Origin: Eubacteriales bacterium
GTDB lineage: Bacteria > Bacillota > Clostridia > Peptostreptococcales > Anaerovoracaceae
DNA length: 64,000 nucleotides
NCBI GenBank assembly: GCA_028704515.1
Contig: JAQWFH010000002.1
Coordinates: 1-64,000, forward strand
Direction of reading: 5' to 3'
Shown piece by piece: positions 61,938-64,000 of this stretch; positions within the stretch are counted from its first letter, which is position 1; every line of letters begins with the position of its first letter. The position numbers were made by a program, and so were the translations under genes. The notes under the pieces are model-generated. The model saw nothing but the letters and a program-made list of their open reading frames with translations, was not told the DNA's origin and made no database searches.

Positions 61938-62303
61938 CTATATTTCCAAATTGTCTATGATGGCTTTTATACTCTTAAGCTCTTCGTTGAGCTTAACATC
62001 GCAATTGTTTTTGTCTATAATTGAACTCAATCTTTTGTCTATTTCCAGGATTGCTTTGCGACTTTCAGCAAATCGCTTCATGAGACCCAGCTTTTCCTCG
62101 TAACCCAAAAGAGATTTCTCTGCATTTTTCAGCGATATATGAACAGCTTGCCTCGATATCCCGTATTCCGAAGAAATTTCGGACAAAGAGTAGTTTTCCT
62201 GATGGTATAGGTTCATTACATCTCTTTGCTTTTCCGTAAGCAGCCTACCATAAAAGTCATATAGCAGGCTCGTTTCGGTTAACCTATCAAACATATATCT
62301 CAC
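61938..62303 (-). CDS. ylxM: YlxM family HTH protein
   Basis: Protein of 121 residues (UPF0122). Sigma-like helix-turn-helix YSLSEISSEYGISRQAVHIS near 37-56. In streptococci the homologue modulates SRP GTPase activity. First gene of ylxM-ffh-rpsP. Confidence 0.92.
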   Translation of the reverse strand: MRYMFDRLTETSLLYDFYGRLLTEKQRDVMNLYHQENYSLSEISSEYGISRQAVHISLKNAEKSLLGYEEKLGLMKRFAESRKAILEIDKRLSSIIDKNNCDVKLNEELKSIKAIIDNLEI

Positions 62304-62343: not shown

Positions 62344-62383
62344 AAAAAAATATGCCTGTCAAGTATTTTTACTTGAAAGGCAT
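62344..62383 (-). terminator. Terminator of the sppA/deacylase transcript
   Basis: On the minus strand ATGCCTTTCAAGTA pairs with TACTTGACAGGCAT (one mismatch) around AAAA, then ATTTTTTT. It lies 15 bases past the deacylase stop and separates it from ylxM. Confidence 0.85.
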
Positions 62384-62397
62384 GATTATTGAAAATA

Positions 62398-63351
62398 TTA
62401 ATCCTTGAATTCCAATTCTTCTGGCTTTCTAAGCCTTTGATGCTTGTAAATAGGCACATTGTATTTTTCACCCAAGGCACGGACTAAATCCTTATAGCAG
62501 CCCTTCATCTTATCATGGAATGCGATTGCCGAAATGCCGCCCTTTATGGATTCTACGCAATTAGAAATTCTTTCAAGGCCATCTTCATTCTCGTATTCTC
62601 CCGCAACAAGCCATTGGTTTGCTATTATATGGGTTACGCCGAATGCCTCATCATCCCACGAAGTAAGGGCAGCCTCTGCATAATTAGGGTCAAAGTGAAC
62701 GCCTCCAACGCAAAGCAAATTGTGTATTTTCTTCCCGTCACTGTCAAATATTTTTGTAGTTGCACGAGCAAGTGCACGACAAGCATCTCTGTTATTCCAG
62801 CTGCTCTCATCGCTTCCGACTTCAACGTCCATCATTGGCACTGTGAATTCCAGGAGAAGATTTGGATCTCCCTCTCCATCGTACACTCCCGACCAATGCG
62901 TCGCTTCCGTTACAACTTTATATTCCTCAAGGCCTGCAGCCTTTCTGTTCTCATCTATAGCAAGAAGTAAATTCCTCATATATTCCGGTGCGGACGGCCC
63001 ATACACGCCTGAGTTGACATCACCCAAAGAGTGAACAGTAAGCACGTTATCCGGGGCATTTTCGCCCTCATGCCATGTCAGCATTCCACAAATGTCAAAA
63101 TCCGAGAAATATTTCTTCATCTCAGGTAAGAACCTAGGGTAATCCCTGCATACAGCGATATCTGTAGGGACGAAATAAAATTCGTTGCCTTTTTCATCGG
63201 TGTTTTTCATAACCCGACGCCCTTGGAAAGTTATATCGGTTTCTTCCTGGAAACATCCTTCTTCTTCCAATATATCCCATATAATGTATGATACGTATCC
63301 CCATTCTTTATTATTTGCGATAAAATATACCGCCTTCTTGTTTGTAGCCAT
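62398..63351 (-). CDS. DTD2/GEK1-type D-aminoacyl-tRNA deacylase
   Basis: Protein of 317 residues; ATG 63351 (AAAGGAG upstream) gives the start MATNKKAVYFIANNKEWGYV. Family markers are THWSGVYDGEG near 166-176, LEFTVPMMDVEVGSDESSWN near 182-201 and LLCVGGVHFDPNYAEAAL near 226-243, whose histidines are expected zinc or catalytic ligands. The DTD2 family is best known from archaea and plants, where it removes D-amino acids and aldehyde adducts from tRNAs. The gene follows sppA by about 20 bases. Family assignment is by motif memory and moderately sure. Confidence 0.72.
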   Translation of the reverse strand: MATNKKAVYFIANNKEWGYVSYIIWDILEEEGCFQEETDITFQGRRVMKNTDEKGNEFYFVPTDIAVCRDYPRFLPEMKKYFSDFDICGMLTWHEGENAPDNVLTVHSLGDVNSGVYGPSAPEYMRNLLLAIDENRKAAGLEEYKVVTEATHWSGVYDGEGDPNLLLEFTVPMMDVEVGSDESSWNNRDACRALARATTKIFDSDGKKIHNLLCVGGVHFDPNYAEAALTSWDDEAFGVTHIIANQWLVAGEYENEDGLERISNCVESIKGGISAIAFHDKMKGCYKDLVRALGEKYNVPIYKHQRLRKPEELEFKD

Positions 63352-63371
63352 TTCTAAAATTTCTCCTTTCT

Positions 63372-64000
63372 TTATTGTTTTGCAAGTGCCTCGCAAAGAT
63401 AGCTAGCCGGATAACCGCCCTTACTATCAACAAAGTTTAAAATTGCTGCAGCTTCACTTGATTTTGTAATTTCTTCAAATCCGGAAAATACGTTCGTGAA
63501 TATATTTGTTTCTCCGACAAACTTCATATCTGTAAGCAAGCATGTTGACTTGTCTTTTTTAATCTTCTTAAGCATGCGCTCATACGCTTCATCAATACCG
63601 CCTATCTTATCAATCAAGCCTATTTCTTTAGCCTGTGCTGCGCTGTATATCCTTCCGTCAGCTATGCCTTTTACATATGCGGTATCCATATTGCGCCCTT
63701 CCGCAACAACACCAACAAACTGTTGATAGGCTTCATCGATTAAGTTTCTCCAAATAGCTTCTTCCTCTTGCGTCATTTCATCATACATGGACCCCATTGC
63801 TTTATTCTGGCCTGAAGTTATTGTTTTGACCTTAATGCCGTGATTGCTCAGAAATTCGGAAAAATCAAACATATTTCCGATTGTCACGCCAATTGAGCCT
63901 GTCCAAGTATTTCTGTTTGCAAAAATTTCATCGCAAGGAGCCGAAATATAATAGCCCCCGGAAGCCGCCATATTACCCATTACTGAGTATACTGGTCTAC
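63372..64000 (-). CDS. sppA: Signal peptide peptidase SppA (partial, runs off the right edge)
   Basis: The last 209 codons are present; the frame continues through 64000 without a start, so the N-terminus is outside the window. The catalytic serine is in GNMAASGGYYISAPCDEIFA and the lysine in ITSGQNKAMGSMYDEM, spaced as in the short Gram-positive SppA. S49 serine protease on the outer face of the membrane; degrades left-over signal peptides. Co-transcribed with the deacylase. Confidence 0.92.
   Translation of the reverse strand, partial: RPVYSVMGNMAASGGYYISAPCDEIFANRNTWTGSIGVTIGNMFDFSEFLSNHGIKVKTITSGQNKAMGSMYDEMTQEEEAIWRNLIDEAYQQFVGVVAEGRNMDTAYVKGIADGRIYSAAQAKEIGLIDKIGGIDEAYERMLKKIKKDKSTCLLTDMKFVGETNIFTNVFSGFEEITKSSEAAAILNFVDSKGGYPASYLCEALAKQ

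Follow-up and report, generated by a model that had tools for sequence, protein, structure and literature searches.

The window, a stretch of 64,000 nucleotides from a Eubacteriales bacterium, carries a gene whose product is, judged by its sequence, a member of the PF04414 superfamily that stands outside DTD2 proper. Sequence comparison places it in a distinct and coherent bacterial branch of PF04414, which is patchy in Clostridia. With moderate confidence, we propose that the protein acts as an accessory aminoacyl-tRNA deacylase of altered specificity beside DTD1 (PF02580), the usual bacterial enzyme, which has the same nominal function and belongs to a different family. In passages of PMC10942605 and PMC10954443, DTD1 is the enzyme of bacteria and eukaryotes, DTD2 that of archaea and land plants, and DTD3 that of cyanobacteria. 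A bacterial branch of DTD2 type that is coherent and exists beside DTD1 contradicts this simple assignment to domains of life. Among the listings returned by our search of an open-access library, no paper describes a bacterial DTD2/PF04414 branch. Proteins of this kind are already found by the PF04414 models, so the novelty lies in the description of the branch and not in its detection.

The gene and its surroundings

An earlier note on this DNA had described a DTD2-type reading frame following sppA in a bacterium. Its coordinates are exact, and both the bacterial host and the position after sppA are borne out (Table 1): the stop codon of sppA, a gene truncated by the end of the window, lies 20 bases 5' of the DTD2-like gene on the same strand. 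Beyond the 3' end of the gene there is a hairpin and then a U-run, and the unit formed by sppA and the DTD2-like gene thus probably ends before the ylxM-ffh group. This hairpin, the stem of which is interrupted by mismatches, was not listed by a simple terminator scan.

Table 1. Features at the end of the window; positions are those of the whole stretch.
Feature	Position	Strand	Evidence
DTD2-superfamily (PF04414) gene	62398..63351	-	ORF of 317 aa plus stop, ATG start; Pfam, modelled fold
Ribosome-binding site GAAAGGAG	63363..63370	-	11 nt 5' of the ATG; read from the sequence
sppA, 3' part (signal peptide peptidase, S49)	63372..64000	-	PF01343, 163 bits; TIGR00706, 171.6 bits, above cut-off
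Hairpin and U-run, probable intrinsic terminator of the sppA-DTD2-like unit	62344..62383	-	-17.2 kcal/mol for 76 nt, z -3.53
ylxM (UPF0122), downstream neighbour, first of the ylxM-ffh group	61938..62303	-	PF04297, 84.4 bits

An sppA-type neighbour is also found beside the copy of a congeneric genome (L003/L009), which is 78% identical to the window gene. The two genes differ by 0.17, 0.10 and 0.59 at codon positions 1, 2 and 3, respectively, as is expected for coding sequences under purifying selection. The intact reading frame, the ribosome-binding site and this pattern of substitutions together indicate a working gene and exclude a chance open reading frame. The 1.93-Mb host assembly contains no further PF04414 match.

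Family, fold and active-site signature

The profile search that the earlier note had proposed as a check matches residues 83-301 to PF04414 (tRNA_deacylase), at 106.8 bits (cut-off 33.6; E 1.4e-30). At E<=1 the protein matched no further Pfam family, neither PF02580, the DTD1 family, nor the TatD family, which DTD3 resembles. The D-aminoacyl-tRNA deacylase equivalogs of NCBIfam (PRK03995 set) were missed, the best being NF003072 with 62.2 bits against 272. A phmmer search of the PDB sequences returned AF0625 (1yqe) with an E value of 5e-6 and PH0006 (2gfq) with 2e-4; the latter is a protein which we take to be the P. horikoshii DTD2. Identity to these archaeal DTD2/UPF0204 proteins is about 22%. 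In passages of PMC10942605, P. horikoshii DTD2 is active on modified D-aminoacyl-tRNAs and the land-plant protein (GEK1, At2g03800) is described under the same family name.

The fold was analysed on an AlphaFold2 model of the protein calculated from 26 bacterial sequences as sole input (pLDDT 91.9, pTM 0.91). Three PH0006 chains and AF0625 occupied the top ranks in Foldseek (E 8e-19 to 5e-17), the next match following at 6e-6. VIA-align superposed the model on PH0006 with a Z score of 30.6 (2.3 A over 266 residues) and on AF0625 with a Z score of 29.2 (2.7 A over 272 residues), the likeness extending over the whole fold. These overlays indicate that, in the model, the DTD2-type fold spans the protein almost end to end and leaves no place for an added domain. 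The next VIA-align match was a nucleosidase (Z 11.7, model residues 2-204). The resemblance to MTA/SAH nucleosidases and purine nucleoside phosphorylases concerns the N-terminal 200 residues and, with Z scores of about 10-12 and 6-13% identity, is far below the DTD2 match. Residues 2-204 also resemble some N-acetylmuramoyl-L-alanine amidases. Surface charge was considered as a sign of tRNA binding and proved uninformative, since acidity is shared by TrmD and the archaeal proteins.

Residues were compared between 57 bacterial rows and three archaeal sequences, namely PH0006, AF0625 and a Natronorubrum protein (L035) annotated as D-aminoacyl-tRNA deacylase. Loci L060-L064 stand outside this table and entered the motif check alone, which brings the motif scan to 62 bacterial loci. 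Thirteen residues, including five histidines and two glutamates, are invariant in 60/60 rows (H94, H107, G110, E149, T151, H152, E177, G179, S180, G216, G217, H219 and H241); they contain the elements T151-H152, E177-x-G-S and G216-G217-x-H219 shared with archaeal DTD2/UPF0204. DTD2 proper, of the archaeal and plant type, binds zinc, and candidate metal ligands are conserved in the bacterial branch.

In contrast, six positions change between the archaeal sequences and every bacterial row: R to W93, N to D111, H to W153, P to G155, F to D175 and Y to F220. All six, like the insert described below, fall inside or next to the best-conserved parts of the family. The signatures E[AG]THW[ST], GGxHF and WHxG each occur in 62/62 bacterial loci, THH in none. 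The corresponding archaeal motifs, the generality of which rests on three sequences, two of them partial, are THHGP, GGxHYAP and SRHS; from archaea to bacteria, SRHS is replaced by xWHxG, GN by GD, THHGP by THW[S/T]G with an insert, and GGxHYAP by GGxHF. The insert, of about 11 residues, follows THW, while the seven-residue archaeal loop after residue 118 is absent from the bacterial proteins. Near the C-terminus, H279 is invariant in bacteria and found only there. The first histidine of the archaeal HH pair is kept as H152 and the second has become W153. In the Arabidopsis enzyme, H150A is presented as a catalytic mutant (in passages of PMC10942605); by its position in the sequence, H150 probably maps to this pair and may be either of the two histidines.

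The retained histidines and glutamates, together with the whole fold, point to an unchanged chemistry, with hydrolysis of an ester beside a centre formed by a metal or a histidine. In sequence, the exchanges adjoin this retained set, which argues for a changed pocket, and the fixed changes and the insert could mean a different substrate. The rewritten active site is a natural experiment on the residues of DTD2 that set substrate choice. The name DTD2, as used in the earlier note, stands for the family and for the archaeal UPF0204/DTD2 fold; it fails at the HHGP motif, replaced in 62/62 loci, and at the NCBIfam cut-offs. On account of these rewritten motifs and unreached cut-offs, we file the protein in the PF04414 superfamily and not in DTD2 proper.

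Distribution, phylogeny and gene settings

Carriers make up 7 of the 99 genomes sampled in the window's family, 27 of 297 in its order and 8 of 342 in its class; at the level of the phylum, the window's own genome is the single carrier among 398. In one scan of the genome_contigs collection, 25 loci were found, every one in a record with a Firmicutes/Clostridia-type title; the organisms include Anaerotignum lactatifermentans, Sedimentibacter hydroxybenzoicus and Clostridium sp. MD294. The plasmid collection added one locus, from Acetoanaerobium noterae (L034, NZ_CP154629.1). This record, titled 'Acetoanaerobium noterae plasmid pTPELB2', is 2.63 Mb long and lists no annotation for the DTD2-like gene; given this chromosome-like size, the plasmid label is probably wrong and the record a chromosome. 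As for carriage by mobile elements, the phage collection gave no match, and none of the 37 stretches of viral_contigs containing the pattern was confirmed. The culturable carriers Anaerotignum, Sedimentibacter and Acetoanaerobium are systems in which to ask why cells need both a DTD1 and a DTD2-type enzyme.

In a midpoint-rooted tree with the three archaeal sequences, the 62 bacterial rows (60 distinct sequences, as L003/L009 and L012/L059 are identical pairs) form one clade (100/100). The branches separating this clade from the archaeal three are 4.13 and 1.93 changes per column, making the join unsafe; their great length rules out a recent transfer from these three archaeal lineages. The rows of the window's family scatter over five places in the tree, indicating that the gene has often been moved or lost. 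Land plants resemble the bacterial carriers in having DTD1 and a DTD2-type protein together. The passages of PMC10942605 on the source of plant DTD2 leave it unclear whether this was archaea directly or an 'unidentified intermediate bacterium'. With motifs that diverge from the archaeal ones, the only sequences to which it was compared, the bacterial branch is an unlikely candidate for the missing donor of the plant gene.

The neighbouring genes, whose domains were scanned in one representative per cluster, vary widely and include sppA, an HTH-cupin regulator and PhzF, among others. Over the loci examined, no neighbour is conserved across the branch, and no conserved tRNA or translation gene was found. 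Such a diversity of settings is the pattern expected of a self-contained enzyme. The neighbour is a nitrilase-type amidase in one cluster (L014, scanned, with L015, L016, L017 and L021), a tryptophanase-type lyase in L027 and a PLP decarboxylase in L029. A MarR-GNAT fusion, combining a regulator and an acetyltransferase, lies directly upstream in L057, L062 and L063 (domains scanned in L057).

A diaminopropionate ammonia-lyase gene is located directly upstream and on the same strand in 9/62 loci (L034, L040, L042, L043, L044, L046, L047, L050 and L052). This adjacency recurs in two separate clades of the gene tree, and the coordinates agree for eight genomes. The ammonia-lyase exceeds the TIGR03528 cut-off in all three cases scanned (L034, G703 at L065 and G651 at L066). 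Near the pair formed by the ammonia-lyase and the DTD2-like gene, an M20-type amidohydrolase and an arylformamidase-like protein are encoded in one locus (L065:2896-4829), and a glutamate racemase lies about 4 kb from the pair in another (L066:4527-5300).

Companion enzymes and proposed function

Six families were tested on a panel of 36 carriers, that is, all distinct carriers found, and 36 non-carriers, which were hand-picked and non-random, the status of some non-carriers resting on absence from match tables. DTD1 is present in 34/36 carriers, among them the window's genome (G000:C60), and in 34/36 non-carriers. Its presence in nearly all carriers led us to reject a replacement of DTD1 and shows that the DTD2-like enzyme is an addition, both types sharing one compartment.

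The test of diaminopropionate ammonia-lyase was prompted by the observed adjacency. Genome-wide, this enzyme is encoded by 27/36 carriers and 6/36 non-carriers. The association persists when counted by genus (14/21 against 5/32, p 0.0003), among genomes of 1.9-3.4 Mb (12/16 against 4/20, p 0.002) and after removal of the three genera with adjacent genes (11/18 against 5/32, p 0.0016). The window's genome has a gene of the ammonia-lyase family on another contig (G000:C10), which exceeds the cut-offs of TIGR01747 and NF006058 and falls below that of TIGR03528. Histidine ammonia-lyase (HutH), used as a control, showed no link (20/36 carriers, 17/36 non-carriers). For the D-proline reductase PrdA, raw counts of 18/36 against 7/36 became 9/21 against 5/32 by genus (p 0.054), which is suggestive only. 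The purine/uric-acid cluster is marked by YgeY; a link to this cluster found no support, with 3/36 genomes over the cut-off in either group and 8 against 6 at E<=1e-60.

As an accessory deacylase, the protein would most likely be a histidine-dependent, possibly zinc-dependent, hydrolase. It would cleave the ester bond of an aberrant aminoacyl-tRNA, one whose amino acid is of the D form, unusual or modified, with a specificity shifted relative to that of the archaeal enzyme. The fixed changes with the insert, the low NCBIfam scores and the lack of a conserved tRNA or translation gene among the neighbours weigh against this reading. The association with diaminopropionate ammonia-lyase suggests that the load may come from amino-acid catabolism and not from acetaldehyde. 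In a bolder version, which we consider unlikely, the enzymes of the bacterial branch have been re-tuned and remove from tRNA 2,3-diaminopropionate (D or L) or a related amino acid of catabolism; the ammonia-lyase, as their recurrent operon partner, destroys the free form, the two acting as a two-step guard directed at a single toxic amino acid. According to a title cited in PMC9127364, L-2,3-diaminopropionate causes diverse metabolic stresses in Salmonella. If true, this version would add a new class of enzyme to translation quality control in Clostridia.

A serious rival, to which we give real but limited credence, is a repurposing of the DTD2 fold: the substrate would now be a small molecule from amino-acid catabolism (an amide, an ester or an N-acyl amino acid) and tRNA would have been abandoned. 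The six fixed substitutions around the conserved histidines, the new loop after THW, the loss of the archaeal loop and the bacteria-only H279 would all fit such a repurposing, as would the amino-acid or related enzymes that adjoin the gene in several loci and the genome-level link to diaminopropionate ammonia-lyase. However, the branch as a whole lacks a conserved neighbour, the full set of histidines and glutamates of archaeal DTD2 is retained, and the fold occupies nearly the whole protein.

The earlier note had suggested that an anaerobe making acetaldehyde by fermentation could benefit from DTD2, which would make the protein an ordinary enzyme of archaeal origin guarding tRNA against acetaldehyde-modified D-amino acids. 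The family and the fold agree with this improbable explanation, and AdhE is encoded by the window's own genome (G000:C48, 1209 bits), for which the acetaldehyde idea keeps some plausibility. The most direct aldehyde link comes from a relative that follows an aldehyde ferredoxin oxidoreductase gene (PF01314) at a distance of about 100 bases (L006:2488-3642). The raw excess of AdhE among carriers (19/36 against 7/36 non-carriers at the NF010378 cut-off) nevertheless comes from one family, f144: outside this family the counts are 2/19 and 4/31, and by genus 5/21 and 6/32. Across the panel AdhE thus follows f144 and not the DTD2-like gene, and the acetaldehyde benefit, left without support, was dropped as an explanation. 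The very long branches to the three archaeal proteins and the signature motifs, which differ in 62/62 loci, also speak against an ordinary archaeal-derived DTD2.

Finally, a decaying or catalytically dead relic, which the loss of one histidine of the HH pair might suggest, is barely credible given the pattern of purifying selection, the 13 invariant residues with their five histidines and reading frames that are intact in nearly all loci, a stop being reported in L039.
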